DNA of 35,712 bases from Vulcanimicrobiota bacterium (GCA_019240755.1 JAFAXS010000157.1:1-35712); one strand, 5' to 3'; counted from the first letter of the stretch, positions 28,897 to 35,515 are shown. The notes: generated by a model from the letters alone, not told the origin. Numbers and translations: made by a program.

Positions 28897-30060
28897 GTGA
28901 AGTTTTCTACGAGGGCCATACACGTCGGGCAGGAAGCGGATCCGACTACCGGGGCGACGATCGTTCCGATCTACCAAACCTCCACGTACACGCAGGAACG
29001 AGTCGGCGAGCATAAAGGATTCGATTACAGCAGAACCGTCAACCCGACGCGACTCGCCCTGGAGCGCCAACTAGCCGCACTCGAGGACGGCCGGTACGCC
29101 AACGCGTTTGCGAGCGGGATGGCGGCGACGTCCGCGGTCGTGGGATTGCTCTCGAGCGGAGATCACGTCGTGGCAGGCGACGATCTCTACGGGGGAACCT
29201 ACCGCGTCTTCACTCACGTCTTCCGTCGCTACGGCATCGAGTTCAGCTACGCCGATACCTCGGACCTCGAAGCGGTTCGGGCGGCGATTCGGCCCACTAC
29301 GAAGCTGTTTTGGCTGGAAACGCCGACGAACCCGTTATTGAAGATCGCCGATATCGCGGCGATTGCGGCGCTACGAACCGGCGAGCAGATCGTCGTGGTG
29401 GACAATACCTTCGCGACGCCCTACTTTCAGCGGCCGCTCGCGCTCGGCGCCGACGTCGTCGTGCACTCGACGACCAAGTATATCGGCGGACACAGCGACG
29501 TCATCGGCGGCGTGACGGTTACGAACGATGCCGCGCTGTACGACCGAATCCGCTTCATGCAGAACTCCGTGGGCGCCGTTCCCGGCGCGCAAGACGCGTG
29601 GCTCACGATGCGCGGCGCCAAGACGCTCGCCGTGCGAATGCGCGAACACGCGCGCAACGCGCAGGTCGTCGCCGAGTTTCTGCAAGGGCGGCCCGACGTT
29701 TCGCGTGTCTACTATCCCGGGCTCGCTTCGCATGCGCAGCACGAAGTCGCGCGCCGGCAAATGAGCGGGTTCGGCGGCATGGTTTCGTTCGTGCTGGACG
29801 ATACCGCGCGCGCGATGGAGCTGGCGCACAGCCTGAAGTACTTCAGTCTGGCGGAGAGCCTGGGCGGCGTCGAATCGCTGATCTGCCACCCGGCTCGAAT
29901 GACGCACGGCTCCATTCCAACCGAACAGCGGGAGCGGCGTGGAATCAGCGACGGATTGTTGCGGCTCTCCGTCGGAATCGAAGATGCCGCCGATCTGCTC
30001 GAGGACCTTCGGACCGCGCTCGATCGCACCGCAGCACCGGCTACGGTTGGTCTTCGCTAA
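28897..30060 (+). CDS. Cystathionine gamma-lyase / gamma-synthase (PLP, Cys/Met metabolism family)
   Basis: 387 residues from GTG 28897. PLP Lys194 lies in HSTTKYIGGHSDVIGG. YQTSTYTQERVGEHKGFDYSR, FASGMAATSAVV, ETPTNPLLKI and the C-terminal SLGGVESLICHPARMTH are family signatures. These enzymes form or split cystathionine. Because the gene starts 3 nt after cystathionine beta-synthase, reverse transsulfuration (homocysteine to cysteine) with gamma-lyase activity is the likely role; gamma-synthase cannot be ruled out from sequence. The stop overlaps that of the convergent secreted-protein gene. Confidence 0.93.
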   Translation: MKFSTRAIHVGQEADPTTGATIVPIYQTSTYTQERVGEHKGFDYSRTVNPTRLALERQLAALEDGRYANAFASGMAATSAVVGLLSSGDHVVAGDDLYGGTYRVFTHVFRRYGIEFSYADTSDLEAVRAAIRPTTKLFWLETPTNPLLKIADIAAIAALRTGEQIVVVDNTFATPYFQRPLALGADVVVHSTTKYIGGHSDVIGGVTVTNDAALYDRIRFMQNSVGAVPGAQDAWLTMRGAKTLAVRMREHARNAQVVAEFLQGRPDVSRVYYPGLASHAQHEVARRQMSGFGGMVSFVLDDTARAMELAHSLKYFSLAESLGGVESLICHPARMTHGSIPTEQRERRGISDGLLRLSVGIEDAADLLEDLRTALDRTAAPATVGLR

Positions 30061-30635
30061 GGCTGATCGACCGGGTAGCGAACTGCGCTGACGTCGCTTA
30101 AGACGCGGCGAGCTTCCTCGGGGCCAGCGTCGCCTAGTCGTTCCGTTTCGGAAAGCACGACGCCGCGCTGACCATCGGCCCAAACGATCGAGTACTGTTT
30201 GCGCGCATCGAAGCCACTGCCGTACGCGACCTCCACGAAGTAGGCCGGCATGCCGTTCTTTAGCGTCATGGCCGTCTTGTTACGGATCAGCACTCCTTCT
30301 TGGGTGCTGTGCTCTTGGCTCTCGAACTGGCCTTCCCACTGATTCGGCGGCCCGCCATACGCTTCCATCGCGAGCGTAATCGTGCGGGCATCTTCCTTCC
30401 CGGGCCGCAGCACCCACACCGCAACGGTTTGCAGGTCCTGCGACAGCGCGTCGAGCGACCCTTGCTGGCGGCCGAGCAGCACCGCGTCGGCGGGCGCCAC
30501 GAACGTCATCGCGGGATCGGTGTAGACATGCGGATCGGGGTTCGGGGTCGCCGTCGGCTCGGCATCTTGCGCAATCGACCGCAGCGGCGCACCGAGGGCG
30601 CAAAGGAGCATCGCGGCAATATATAACCGTTTCAT
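30057..30635 (-). CDS. Exported protein of unknown function
   Basis: 192 residues with a signal peptide (MKRLYIAAMLLCALGAPLRSIAQ, cleavage after SIAQ) and a Pro/Thr linker (AEPTATPNPDP). The mature domain, with VYTDPAMTFVAPADAVLLG, TITLAMEAYGGPPNQWEGQF and QYSIVWADGQRGVVLSET, looks like a single alpha/beta domain for which I have no family name. It overlaps the upstream esterase gene by 4 nt (ATGA), so both are translated from one transcript. A link to the esterase is inferred only from this coupling. Confidence 0.75.
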   Translation of the reverse strand: MKRLYIAAMLLCALGAPLRSIAQDAEPTATPNPDPHVYTDPAMTFVAPADAVLLGRQQGSLDALSQDLQTVAVWVLRPGKEDARTITLAMEAYGGPPNQWEGQFESQEHSTQEGVLIRNKTAMTLKNGMPAYFVEVAYGSGFDARKQYSIVWADGQRGVVLSETERLGDAGPEEARRVLSDVSAVRYPVDQP

Positions 30636-31672
30636 TCGCGGTCTAGTACGTTCGCCAGCGCCGGCAGGGACACTTCGTACCGATAGGCGACGTTGCGATG
30701 GTCGTCGTCGAACTCCTCGTGGCGCACGTCGAGCCCGAGATCTCTAATCCGCGCCGCAACGGCCCGAGACCCGATATCGAGGTGGTACTCGTCTTTGCGT
30801 CCACAGTCGAGATAACGCAGCCGGAGCCGTTCGAGTTCTGCGCGAGAGCGGCTGATGCGCAGCGCGGGGTCGAAGGCAAGCCACCGGTCGAACACATCCT
30901 CGCGCAGCTCGCCCGTCGCACTGTCGAAGGGCAAATCGAGATCGAACGCCTTGGCGCTCCGCGGCGAGTATGCCGCGGCATATGCCAGCATTTCCATGGT
31001 CGTATACTCCGCGGGGCTGCGTTTGTGTTTCTCCTCGAAGAATTTCACGAAGCTCTCGATGTCGAAGGCGTGCGCCTCGAGCGTTCGATGTACCACCGGG
31101 AACGCCATCAGATGGGCATACCGAAAGTATGCGTCGCCGCTGTGCGATGCGAACGCCGCAAACGTTCCCGGATGCTCCAAGACGAGGTGCATGGCGCCGA
31201 AGCCGCCTGACGACTTTCCAACGACGGCGCGCCCGCCCTCGGACGCGATCGTACCGTACGACCGATCCACATGACCGATAACGTCGCGGACGACATAGGT
31301 TGCGTAATCGCCGTTATGAATTGAGTCAACGTACTGCGAGCCTCCCAACCGAGTGAAGCCGTCCACCAGCACGACGAGCGCCTGCGGCATGCGCTTGCGC
31401 CGCATCAATCGGTCCGCCCATTGCAATACGTTCGTTTCCCATGGACGGGTCGCAATGAGCGCCCGCACGTCGCCTGTGTAGCCGTGTAGCACGTAGATGG
31501 CCGGATAACGGCGTTGGACGCTCGCGTCATATCCATCGGGTAGATACACGATCACCGGTCGCTCCGCGGGATCGCCGAGCGGGTTGCCGCGCAAGGCGTC
31601 GCTCGAAACGGTGTCGAGGCGGACGTCGCCCCCGAGGCCGAGCAGTCGCGCGACCTCGGATTGCCGGTGCAT
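30632..31672 (-). CDS. Esterase D-type alpha/beta hydrolase
   Basis: 346 residues, no signal peptide. Features of the esterase family (PF00756-like): VIVYLPDGYDASVQRRYPAI, YVLHGYTG (oxyanion region), the nucleophile elbow VVGKSSGGFGAM with Ser154, and a C-terminal FDDDHRNVAYRY segment supplying Asp and His. The insert FFEEKHKRSPAEYTTMEMLA is a helical lid. Related enzymes cleave feruloyl esters, enterobactin or trehalose mycolates, so the substrate is not evident. The start lies 39 nt from the divergent permease-hydrolase fusion gene, suggesting shared control, and the secreted protein follows with overlap. Confidence 0.87.
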   Translation of the reverse strand: MHRQSEVARLLGLGGDVRLDTVSSDALRGNPLGDPAERPVIVYLPDGYDASVQRRYPAIYVLHGYTGDVRALIATRPWETNVLQWADRLMRRKRMPQALVVLVDGFTRLGGSQYVDSIHNGDYATYVVRDVIGHVDRSYGTIASEGGRAVVGKSSGGFGAMHLVLEHPGTFAAFASHSGDAYFRYAHLMAFPVVHRTLEAHAFDIESFVKFFEEKHKRSPAEYTTMEMLAYAAAYSPRSAKAFDLDLPFDSATGELREDVFDRWLAFDPALRISRSRAELERLRLRYLDCGRKDEYHLDIGSRAVAARIRDLGLDVRHEEFDDDHRNVAYRYEVSLPALANVLDRE

Positions 31673-31711: not shown

Positions 31712-34700
31712 ATGGCGGAACGAATGCTTGAGCTCAAGCGTGCAATTGACGTGCGCGGCGCGCTTTCGATCAATGTCATCACGATGATCGGGATAGGCCC
31801 GCTCGTGACGATTCCGCTAGTTATCGCCGCACTCGGCGGTCCGCTGGCGCTCGTCGGCTGGATCGCAGGAGCGATCGTCGCGCTCTGCGACGGCCTCGTC
31901 TGGGCAGAGCTCGCCTCGGCGTTTCCAGGCTCCGGCGGCACGTACGTTTACCTGCGCAACATCTTCGGGCCGAACGGACTCGGCCGGGCGTTGGCCTTTC
32001 TTTTCAACTGGCAGTTCTTGCTCTACGCGCCGTGTCTGCTCGCCAGCGGCTACATCGGTTTTGCCAACTATGCAGCCTACCTGTATCCGAGCATCGGCAA
32101 TAACGCCTACATCCACGATGCTCTCGCCGTCGCGATCGGGATCGTGACGATTCTGTTGCTCTATCGCCGCACCGCGCAAGTCGCGACCCTGGGCGCGATA
32201 CTCGCCGTCGTGGCGACCCTCACCGTGGCGATCGTCGCCGTCGCCGGCCTTTCGCAGGCGAACTTCACGCAGATCCTTCACCTCGGAGCTCCGCTGCGTT
32301 TGGGTGTCGGCTTTCTGGCCGGCTTCGCCGCTGCACTCTATATCACGCTGTACGATTACGTTGGATATGCGGACGCTGCGTTGCTCGGCGACGAGGTCGT
32401 GCGACCGGACCGCACGATTCCCTTAGCAATCGTCCTCTCGGTCATCATCGTCGCCGCGCTCTACGTGCTGCTGCAGATCGGCGTGCTCGGCGCGGTGCCG
32501 TGGCGCTCGCTGCTCGACGCGCACGGTCAACCAACGGTCGAGGCGCAATATGTCGGCGCGCTGGTCGTCCAACGGGCGTGGGGCCGCCTTGCGGCGCTCG
32601 GCGTCACCGTTGCAGTACTGGCGACCGCATTCGCCTCGCTGTACGGAAATTTGCTGGGCTTTTCGCGCATCTCGTTTGCCGCCGCCCGCGACGGCGCGTT
32701 CTTCGCGGTTTTTGGCAGGCTTCACCCAAGCAAAGAAATTCCGCACGTCGCGTTGCTGGTGGTGGGCGGCCTCTCCCTGATCGCGAGCCTCTTCACGCTG
32801 GACCAGGTAATCGCGTTTCTCACGGCGGGCATCGTGTTGATTCAGGGAGTCACGCAGATCGTCGCGCTTGCGCTGTTGCGCACTCGGCGAAACCCGGCCC
32901 GCTTTAGAATGCCCCTCTACCCGCTGCCCGCGCTGATCGCGCTCGTAGGCTGGACGATCGCCTTTATCGGTTCCGGCGTTACCGCGATCGCGCTCGGGTC
33001 CGCGTGGCTCGCAATCGGGACGATCGTCTTCTTGGCGGCGGCGTGGCGGCAGCGATGGTGGCCGTTCGCCCTGGCCGCAGTAGTCGTTTTCGCAGTGGTG
33101 GCGGCGCCCACTTTCGCCGTGAGCTCTTCGCAAGAGAGTCAACGCTGGTCGAATTGGGATACGTCCCGCGTGACATCGGATCACGGCTATCCGGTGTTTA
33201 GCGTGGAGGGGCGCCCGTATTTTCCGTACGGCGCGGCGTTTTTCTACGAACGGATTCCGCGCGATCGCTGGCGCGCGTCGCTGCTTGCCTATAAGGCACT
33301 CGGAATCAACACGATCGATCTGTACTGCATCTGGAACTGGCACGCGCCCGAGCAGGGCGTCTTGGATTTCAACGGCGCGACCGACCCGCGGCGGGACCTC
33401 GTAGGCCTCTTGAACATCACGCACGAGCTGGGATTCAAGCTGATTCTCCGCCCAGGGCCCGTCATCCGCAACGAGTGGCGTAACGGCGGATATCCGGGAT
33501 GGCTCCTCGAGCGCCCGCCCTACCACATGCCGCTGCACGACGTGCTCGAGGCCCGCTATCCCGCAACGGCGACGTTGCAGAATCGCCATGCCGACGCCGC
33601 GGCCGGCGAATGGCTGGCGAACACGACGCATCTCGACAATGCCGCCGCTTGGCTACGCGAAGTGCTTCGCGCGGTCGAGCCGTACTCGCATGACGTTCTT
33701 GCGATTGCGCTCGACGACGATCAAGGCGCGTATCTCGATAACGATACCTGGCCGGCACCGCACTGGCACGCATACGTTCGTTGGCTGCGACAGACGGTGC
33801 AGTCGGTGACCGGGACGCGGGTGCCGCTCTTCATCAATACGTACGAGATGAAGGTTCCGGCCGCCGCGCCGGCCTGGGCATGGGGCAACTGGTACCAGAG
33901 CAACTCGTATCGCCTGAACGCGCACGACCTCGCCGATCTCGACTTCGCGACCGGCCTGCTGCAAACGCAGGCGCGATTTCCCGTCATGCAATCGGAGTTT
34001 CAAGCCGGATGGCTGCAGGGCGCCGACGAGGGCGCCCCGCGCCCGAGCGATCCTGCCAACACTGCGCTGGCGCTGGGAGAGCTGCTGCGCGACGGCGCGC
34101 ACGGCATCGTGAACTTTCCGGTGCAGGATACCATCGATCCGCACGGGTGGGAAGCTCCGTGGGCCAATTGGTCATACGCATGGGATGCCGCGTTGACGGT
34201 CGACCTCCATGCCTCCCCGCGGTATGGGCCGACGCGCGCCGTCGGCGACGTCGTTCGGCGTTACGGCGCCTTGCTCGCGCGAACGCACGTCGCAGCGGAT
34301 GCCGCGATCGTCTGGGCGCCGACCCTGTTTGCGCCGGGAACGCTGAGCAACGCGGACTTCGACGAACTGGCATCCTCGACGATTGCGTTGCAGCGAACTT
34401 GCAACGCGCGCGGCGTCACCTGTGAGCTCGTCGATCTCGCTGCATTAGACCCGCCCGGGCTGCGGAGGAACCAATTCTTGCTTGCGCTTCCGCCCGGCTT
34501 CGCCCGGCGCATGACGCCGCGCGCAGCGCGTATGCTGACGACGCTACGCACATCGGGCCGGCTCTTCTTGTCGCTCGAGGGCTTTCGAGGCACGAGCCCC
34601 TATCGCGGTGTGCGCAACGTAACGCTCTTGACGGCCAACGACTCCCGTTATGGCTTCGTCGTCGCGATCGATCCCGACGCCGTCCGTCATCATATTCCAT

Positions 34701-35515
34701 CGAGGACCGTACGTTTGAGAGGCCGCTCGCTGAAGGTCGCGGGATTCGACGTGGCCGCCGGCAGCATGCGCGTCGTTCCCGTCGGAGTTACCGCGCCGAA
34801 GGTGGCCGCGCCGGAGCCCCCGGCGACCGGAACTCCGCCGCCGTTCGCCGATCCTGGCGGGATCGTGATCTCCAATTCGCATCTGCGCGTCGTGTTTGCG
34901 CCGTTCGCGGGCGCGCGAATCGCGGAGCTGGGCGATGGAAGTTGGAATGCGGCAACCGGAATCGGCCTGCTGCGCGACGCCGTCGACCCAGCACCGCCGG
35001 CATCCTCACGCGACTACATCCGAAGCTACACGCATCCAATTGCTGCAGGCACGTTCAATCGCGCCTACCTCTGCAACGGCGAAGACGTTCTAACGACGCG
35101 CCGCGTCAGTTGCTCGTACGACGCCCCGGACGTGCCGCGCGGCGGTGCAGTGTTTCAAAGAACTCTGACGCTAACCGGGGCGAGCACCGATTTGATCGTC
35201 GGCGAAACGTTCGTGCCCCACGGCGTTCCCTCGACGGAACGGCTCGAAAGCATCTCGGGGTTCGCATTTGTGGCCGGGGATCGACTCTACCAAGCGCAGG
35301 CTGGCGACGCGCTCGGCATTCTCCACGACGGTCGCCTTGCAACGCTGCGATGGCGGCGAAGCGACGTCGCTCGGATCGAGTTGCGCCGTACCCGCGGGGC
35401 CGAAATCGCAGGATTGATCTTTGCGCGGCGTTCCGTCGAGCTGCGTCTCGGACTGTACCACGTTCACACGGCTGCCGAGGCTCGTACGCTGCTCGACTCT
35501 GCACCGCCGCAGTAA
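31712..35515 (+). CDS. Fusion of an APC-type permease with a GH35-type glycoside hydrolase
   Basis: 1267 residues in one uninterrupted frame. Residues about 5-445 are an APC amino acid permease: LKRAIDVRGALSINVITMIG, then about 12 helices with GSGGTYVYLRNIFGPNGLG and ISFAAARDGAFFAVFGRLHP. An added 13th helix (about 450-471) leads to a GH35-like barrel: GAAFFYERIPRDRWRASLLA, WNWHAPEQGVLDFNG, ILRPGPVIRNEW (Glu588) and VMQSEFQAGW (Glu762, the nucleophile position). The acid/base motif ENEYG is replaced by DDDQG (Asp670). C-terminal beta domains follow from about 830. The frame starts at TTG 31661, but ATG 31712 is preferred. Odd helix number puts the hydrolase outside. Substrate unknown. Confidence 0.9.
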   Translation: MAERMLELKRAIDVRGALSINVITMIGIGPLVTIPLVIAALGGPLALVGWIAGAIVALCDGLVWAELASAFPGSGGTYVYLRNIFGPNGLGRALAFLFNWQFLLYAPCLLASGYIGFANYAAYLYPSIGNNAYIHDALAVAIGIVTILLLYRRTAQVATLGAILAVVATLTVAIVAVAGLSQANFTQILHLGAPLRLGVGFLAGFAAALYITLYDYVGYADAALLGDEVVRPDRTIPLAIVLSVIIVAALYVLLQIGVLGAVPWRSLLDAHGQPTVEAQYVGALVVQRAWGRLAALGVTVAVLATAFASLYGNLLGFSRISFAAARDGAFFAVFGRLHPSKEIPHVALLVVGGLSLIASLFTLDQVIAFLTAGIVLIQGVTQIVALALLRTRRNPARFRMPLYPLPALIALVGWTIAFIGSGVTAIALGSAWLAIGTIVFLAAAWRQRWWPFALAAVVVFAVVAAPTFAVSSSQESQRWSNWDTSRVTSDHGYPVFSVEGRPYFPYGAAFFYERIPRDRWRASLLAYKALGINTIDLYCIWNWHAPEQGVLDFNGATDPRRDLVGLLNITHELGFKLILRPGPVIRNEWRNGGYPGWLLERPPYHMPLHDVLEARYPATATLQNRHADAAAGEWLANTTHLDNAAAWLREVLRAVEPYSHDVLAIALDDDQGAYLDNDTWPAPHWHAYVRWLRQTVQSVTGTRVPLFINTYEMKVPAAAPAWAWGNWYQSNSYRLNAHDLADLDFATGLLQTQARFPVMQSEFQAGWLQGADEGAPRPSDPANTALALGELLRDGAHGIVNFPVQDTIDPHGWEAPWANWSYAWDAALTVDLHASPRYGPTRAVGDVVRRYGALLARTHVAADAAIVWAPTLFAPGTLSNADFDELASSTIALQRTCNARGVTCELVDLAALDPPGLRRNQFLLALPPGFARRMTPRAARMLTTLRTSGRLFLSLEGFRGTSPYRGVRNVTLLTANDSRYGFVVAIDPDAVRHHIPSRTVRLRGRSLKVAGFDVAAGSMRVVPVGVTAPKVAAPEPPATGTPPPFADPGGIVISNSHLRVVFAPFAGARIAELGDGSWNAATGIGLLRDAVDPAPPASSRDYIRSYTHPIAAGTFNRAYLCNGEDVLTTRRVSCSYDAPDVPRGGAVFQRTLTLTGASTDLIVGETFVPHGVPSTERLESISGFAFVAGDRLYQAQAGDALGILHDGRLATLRWRRSDVARIELRRTRGAEIAGLIFARRSVELRLGLYHVHTAAEARTLLDSAPPQ

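Follow-up and report, generated by a model that had tools for sequence, protein, structure and literature searches.

Why does a bacterial permease carry a glycosidase on the same chain, and what becomes of the two parts once they are made? The question is raised by a gene in a 35,712-nucleotide stretch from a Vulcanimicrobiota bacterium (GCA_019240755.1 JAFAXS010000157.1:1-35712; hereafter the window, meaning the whole stretch). A single open reading frame on the plus strand at 31712-35515 (ATG at 31712, stop codon at 35513-35515) encodes 1267 amino acids, in which a LAT-type permease of the APC family (residues 1-452) is followed by a TIM barrel and beta domains (residues 480-1267) that resemble glycoside hydrolase family 35 (GH35) and GlmA. 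This permease-glycosidase fusion is conserved and lineage-restricted. Its architecture is new, its constituent families are known, and a search of open-licence papers turned up no account of an amino acid permease joined to a glycoside hydrolase. The gene is laid out as follows:

31712..33067, plus strand: LAT-type APC permease, residues 1-452, with 12 transmembrane helices and its native WPF tail at the end
31724, plus strand: ATG, an alternative to the start at 31712, homologues beginning near residue 8
33068..33124, plus strand: internal signal-peptide-like segment, residues 453-471, a hydrophobic stretch and then P466-x-x-A469-x-[A/S]471
33149..35512, plus strand: GH35/GlmA-like exported enzyme domain, residues 480-1267, followed directly by the stop codon

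A chance open frame is ruled out, since 1267 stop-free codons have a probability of about 3e-16 at the GC content of the window and the GC content at third codon positions stays at 0.68-0.84 along the entire frame, junction included. A separate internal start for the enzyme is likewise rejected, as no Met occurs between residues 470 and 500 of the window protein. The original prediction had described one frame, without stop or frame change, joining the permease to a GH35-like part, and this holds in the window and across at least 49 genomes. Of the domain boundaries it gave, the permease and the GH35-like part stand, but the permease ends at residue 452 rather than at about 445, and the two are separated by an additional hydrophobic segment (453-471).

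The fusion is confined to a narrow group of little-studied soil bacteria, within which fused and separate forms coexist. A protein scan of 84,980 species genomes recovered 46 loci, whose named hosts all belong to the Eremiobacterota/Vulcanimicrobiota and about half of which are complete fused frames. Searches within the phylum found the enzyme in 89 of 149 genomes, all but one within a single family, and the permease subfamily in 82 of 148. In this Eremiobacterota family, at least 49 genomes encode both parts as one frame, several of them assembled into only 5-9 contigs, and the fused gene, found in most members, occupies a shared locus. Homologues are therefore not always encoded as two genes, the pattern that would have spoken against a genuine fusion; some are split and many are fused. 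The same locus holds an enzyme-only gene of about 790-1000 amino acids, with an ordinary signal peptide, in 29 genomes. A close permease occurs as a free gene elsewhere in 19 of these 29, whereas none scores above the cut-off in the other 10, and a deeper search of 6 of those 10 returned remote carriers or nothing. A second permease of the subfamily was found in 0 of the 49 fused genomes (19/29 against 0/49 with a free permease, Fisher 3e-11, which is descriptive only because the genomes are related). Among genomes at least 90% complete, 36 are fused, 11 are split with a free permease and 3 are split without one.

The fused and separate states have interchanged repeatedly. On a quick tree of the enzyme the state changes at least 9 times, and a similar tree of the permease shows 5 changes, 2 of which are required by well-supported branches. 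A single clade holds most free permeases and includes two genomes of another family that lack the enzyme (G025 and G028). Genus g13 is an exception: its free permeases (G072 and G073) lie outside this clade, and that of G073 falls within a fused clade, so that at least one of the splits appears to be secondary. Dozens of species retain the fused form with both parts intact, at identities as low as about 45-50%. The proposed link between an exported enzyme and uptake is supported by this distribution, since many genomes have the parts fused, others have them apart, and no fused genome holds a second permease; because relatives encode both as separate genes, enzyme and permease probably work together. 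Two individual loci may be recorded here. In one genome, enzyme and permease are separate genes about 0.53 Mb apart (L072 and L096; G118 C1:1917720 and C1:2450188), and in the metagenome-assembled genome palsa_1483 a frameshift within the permease breaks the fused gene (L046:5653-7789), reflecting either a sequencing error or decay.

The domain search that had been suggested recovered both expected Pfam families, AA_permease_2 at residues 18-410 and Glyco_hydro_35 at residues 496-603. The permease match is strong (PF13520, 1e-38, 133.9 bits against a gathering score of 27), and hydropathy shows the helices of an APC carrier plus one additional hydrophobic segment at 452-470. An AlphaFold model of residues 2-868 places the first half in the LeuT-type 12-helix fold, with a Foldseek match to BasC (6f2g; TM-score 0.87 of target, 450 columns) and further matches to the human light chains LAT1 and y+LAT1 and to AdiC. 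LAT-type permeases (SLC7 light chains, BasC and NCBIfam 2A0306/2A0308) thus share with the window permease the fold, a full-length sequence match and the canonical region after transmembrane helix 6 with D-E-V-x-x-P-x-R-x-I-P. The window permease differs from them in its C-terminal exported enzyme, in its scores against the NCBIfam models, of which the 2A0306 amino acid transporters are closest and all of whose cut-offs lie far above it, and in transmembrane helix 1. There, the carboxylate motif of amino acid carriers is GSGIF. Nearly all fused and free permeases read GIGPL instead and thus lack a GSG-type carboxylate-binding motif, so an amino-acid substrate is not assured. No residues consistently distinguish fused from free permeases.

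The junction suggests how the two parts were joined. Most free permeases stop a few to about 15 residues past a conserved WPF, which places the breakpoint at 452/453. The same WPF (residues 450-452) is kept in the fused proteins (35/35, 35/35 and 34/35). Directly after it come about 13 hydrophobic residues, then a Pro, Ala-x-Ala and a stretch of variable length. Ala occupies positions 469 (-3) and 471 (-1) in 32 of 35 fused proteins each, amid variable surroundings, and Pro stands at -6 in 23 of 35; the window itself reads A469-V-S471, with a candidate signal peptidase I site after residue 471. Together with a positive n-region (R-x-x-R-W-WPF), the hydrophobic stretch and the small -3 and -1 residues provide the features of a type I signal-peptidase substrate. 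Across 31 dissimilar representatives, Pro followed by AxA exceeds composition shuffles (z = 3.1), whereas the plain AxA count is weak (z 2.3) because the segment is rich in Ala, so we relied on column conservation instead. Judged by its residues, the junction has the build of a type I signal peptide cleavage site, with the permease tail replacing the n-region, and is most simply explained by the fusion of an intact permease with the full precursor of an exported protein. Since the -3 and -1 residues appear to be still under selection, cleavage at the junction is implied, and we consider it somewhat better than an even prospect. The gene product is probably a polyprotein and the mature product may be two proteins, which makes the single chain of the original prediction doubtful.

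The enzyme part had been described as GH35-like, and sequence comparison bears this out for its beginning. The Pfam match (PF01301, 1.5e-28, 100.8 bits against a gathering score of 27) spans the first third of the model only (positions 2-105 of 319), and the remaining fold was recognised with AlphaFold and Foldseek. Built with 29 relatives, the enzyme model (predicted local distance difference test score, pLDDT, 80.7; predicted TM-score, pTM, 0.82) has archaeal GlmA exo-beta-D-glucosaminidases as its top PDB matches, followed by the GH35 beta-1,2-glucosyltransferase of Ignavibacterium (IaSGT) and GH35 beta-galactosidases. The NCBIfam model exo_beta_glucsam also matches the first 110 residues (9e-34), at 116.7 bits against an equivalog cut-off of 1500, and hence well short of it. 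Two sites carry the predicted catalytic residues:

33713..33721, plus strand: Asp668-Asp669-Asp670, at the end of barrel strand 4 (model strand 183-189, residues 662-668)
33995..33997, plus strand: Glu762, the predicted nucleophile, in SEFQAGW at the end of barrel strand 7 (model strand 280-284)

Correspondence with GlmA was assigned from pairwise alignment plus barrel-strand position. In Thermococcus GlmA, Glu179 is the acid/base and Glu347 the nucleophile; the C2 amine of glucosamine is bound by Asp178, and the D178N variant is inactive (PMC6566704). In the alignment to Pyrococcus GlmA (5gsl), Asp670 aligns with Glu179 and Asp669 with Asp178, such that the counterpart of the amine-binding Asp directly precedes the acid/base position. 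All 76 fused and free enzymes keep Asp668-670 and Glu762 unchanged, and Tyr538 and Glu588, which align with GlmA Tyr53 and Glu103, do not vary in any sequence that covers the region. GH35 enzymes have a Glu on strand 4 and another on strand 7; here Glu762 is present, while strand 4 bears Asp670. We therefore class the enzyme as GH35-like, possibly a new subfamily. It resembles GlmA (5gsl, 5gsm, 6jow, 8oug) in the N-terminal barrel sequence, the strand-4 and strand-7 catalytic positions, the amine-binding Asp and the Tyr and Glu of subsite -1, but differs in its Asp acid/base, in a sequence match confined to the first 110-180 residues, in being exported and permease-fused, and in its other C-terminal beta domains. 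IaSGT, the second-best structural match (TM-score 0.40-0.53), has an Asn-Glu motif, is cytosolic and has no permease. The strong constraint on the active site in both the fused and the free state speaks for catalysis, and to judge from these residues the site is apparently intact. An Asp acid/base is not fatal to this view, because Asp469 is the named acid/base of the GH2 exo-glucosaminidase CsxA (PMC6566704).

What the pair might act on is suggested by the active site and by the genes beside free permeases. The beta-galactoside specificity proposed earlier is doubtful, as a GlmA-type Asp precedes the acid/base where beta-galactosidases have Asn-Glu, and the acid/base is itself an Asp. A SIS-domain protein adjoins the free permease in 8 genomes, mostly directly upstream on the same strand and often 4 bases apart, although tail to tail in G073. 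These SIS proteins match GlmS, NagB-II and GlmD at 67-168 bits, against 27-29 bits or none for FrlB. A mannose-6-phosphate-isomerase-like protein adjoins the free permease in 4 genomes and a GH20 hexosaminidase in 2, both of genus g13. Asp669 and these amino-sugar genes together indicate an amino sugar, and an amino-sugar conjugate is likelier than a beta-galactoside; we nonetheless hold the amino-sugar substrate only tentatively, at somewhat less than an even chance. It is possible that SIS gene, permease and GH20 form an amino-sugar uptake operon with an APC carrier. To our knowledge, an APC-family amino-sugar carrier would be new.

Individual loci vary in this arrangement. A GlmS/NagB-II-like SIS gene precedes the free permease at L042:3159-7368 (the same locus as L095), and the pairing recurs at L094 (tail to tail), L097, L099, L103, L105, L116 and L119. 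In genus g37 (L096:6353-7438, L108:3902-4996, L110 and L113) the mannose-6-phosphate-isomerase-like gene lies directly upstream in place of the SIS gene. Directly beside several free permeases is a protein of 1170-1420 amino acids (L042:7428-11063, with relatives in L094, L105 and L107), in which Pfam recognises an N-terminal carboxypeptidase-regulatory-like domain in L042 only.

Taken together, we propose a model in which the gene encodes a two-part nutrient-scavenging unit as one precursor, a reading to which, as a whole, we give an even chance. A 12-helix LAT-type permease would be inserted in the inner membrane, and its cytoplasmic WPF tail would continue directly as the signal peptide of an exported enzyme that had once been separate, such that the Sec machinery would treat the remainder as a secreted protein. 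Signal peptidase would probably cut after residue 471, so that a GH35-like exo-glycosidase would be freed into the periplasm in a 1:1 ratio to the permease; without cleavage, the permease would keep the enzyme attached at its outer face. The enzyme would trim a beta-linked, glucosamine-like amino-sugar unit from a conjugate or oligosaccharide, and the permease would import the amino-bearing product. That the permease takes up the product of its own enzyme seems to us fairly likely. More tentative, and distinctly below an even chance, is the full proposal that one gene yields an APC-family amino-sugar transporter and, by way of an internal signal peptide, an exported glycosidase feeding it, an enzyme-coupled uptake system that arose independently of the animal SLC7-SLC3 transporters.

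Several observations weigh against this model. The replacement of the acid/base Glu by Asp could mean a weak or dead enzyme. A close SIS homologue was not found in the genus of the window and the window genome shows only a weak GH20 match, so the amino-sugar assignment draws on other genera and on the active site. The 3 genomes at least 90% complete that have the enzyme and no close permease indicate that the enzyme can do without the permease. Finally, the two parts show no fixed interface in the AlphaFold model (pTM 0.56, linker pLDDT <50), which fits cleavage, yet does not demonstrate cooperation.

A parallel lies in animals, whose SLC7-SLC3 transporters likewise combine a LAT-type carrier and an outward-facing, glycosidase-like barrel (PMC8537225). 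Metazoan pairs such as LAT1-4F2hc and b0,+AT-rBAT resemble the fusion in partnering a LAT permease with a glycoside hydrolase-type TIM barrel on the outer side of the membrane. The animal barrel, however, belongs to GH13 and is a separate heavy chain with its own N-terminal anchor, encoded by a second gene, joined by a disulfide and found in animals only, whereas the bacterial barrel is GH35-like and lies in the same chain. By this comparison, the fusion, in which the parts also follow another order and are linked differently, is an analogue and not a member of the SLC7-SLC3 system. For the chain itself, a precedent is the cytochrome b/c1 precursor FbcH of Bradyrhizobium, in which a polytopic protein and an exported domain form one chain and an internal signal sequence is cut, although FbcH serves a respiratory complex and its proteins are unrelated to those described here.

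The same parallel underlies the most serious competing explanation, an uncleaved single-chain transporter in which residues 453-471 form a 13th transmembrane anchor and the GH35-like ectodomain, perhaps catalytically dead, stabilises or modulates the permease as SLC3 does SLC7. The permease has the fold of SLC7 light chains and bacterial LATs, the positive charges ahead of the segment, together with a topology of 12 helices, place the C-terminal domain outside, the acid/base Glu is replaced by Asp, and the animal ectodomains are GH13-like without shown glucosidase activity (PMC8537225). An anchor would, however, have no need of the conserved Ala at -3 and -1; the predicted helix is short (about 14 residues, a low-confidence helix at 449-462 leading into the linker), no interface is predicted, the catalytic residues are invariant in stand-alone secreted enzymes too, which favours a working active site, and some genomes carry the enzyme without any close permease. 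We regard this explanation as unlikely, though not negligible. Less probable is a tolerated fusion without functional coupling, in which a neighbouring or relocated permease was joined by deletion and the two substrates are unrelated. The frequent interchange of fused and separate forms and the location of free permeases at other loci, away from the enzyme, would agree with it, but the retention of the fused form across dozens of divergent species with both parts intact would not, nor would the distribution of the free permease, present in no fused genome and exactly once in most separate ones. Slightly more doubtful again is an Amadori or glyco-amino-acid system like Frl of E. coli, with an APC permease, a SIS deglycase and the GH35-like enzyme removing sugar from a glycosylated amine or amino acid, a kind of substrate that the original prediction had proposed; the NCBIfam FrlA model does match the permease (6.9e-23) and a SIS gene does adjoin the free permease, but FrlB is a far poorer match to the SIS proteins than GlmS, NagB-II and GlmD are, and the carboxylate motif is changed in free and fused permeases alike. 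Last, an assembly or frameshift artefact joining two genes, conceivable in a 174-contig draft, is refuted without resequencing by the identical frame and conserved junction in the at least 49 genomes from independent projects, 5-9 contig assemblies among them.

The two-part unit, if correct, would illustrate the gain or loss of a glycosidase ectodomain by a transporter, and an internal signal peptide giving two proteins from one bacterial gene would be unusual. The bacterial pair, encoded in one gene and with an apparently intact active site, makes the question of why a permease carries a glycosidase directly testable, since split relatives exist; one genome with a split pair (G118) appears to be that of Vulcanimicrobium alpinum WC8-2, which was the phylum's first member to be cultivated.

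Two genes on the opposite strand accompany the fusion:

30632..31672, minus strand: divergent esterase (PF00756), head to head with the fusion gene and conserved in fused and separate genomes
30057..30635, minus strand: putative exported protein of 192 amino acids, adjoining the esterase and kept at the locus in most genomes

The esterase had been suggested as a possible remover of acyl groups from the same substrate. This finds no support, as the esterase accompanies fused and unfused forms alike and lacks an evident signal peptide; we reject it as a fusion-specific partner and treat it as a conserved neighbour outside the logic of the fusion. The 192-residue protein has no match in Pfam or NCBIfam. 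Wherever the flanks suffice, the locus runs in the order cystathionine beta-synthase, cystathionine gamma-lyase, small exported protein, divergent esterase and fusion or enzyme gene.

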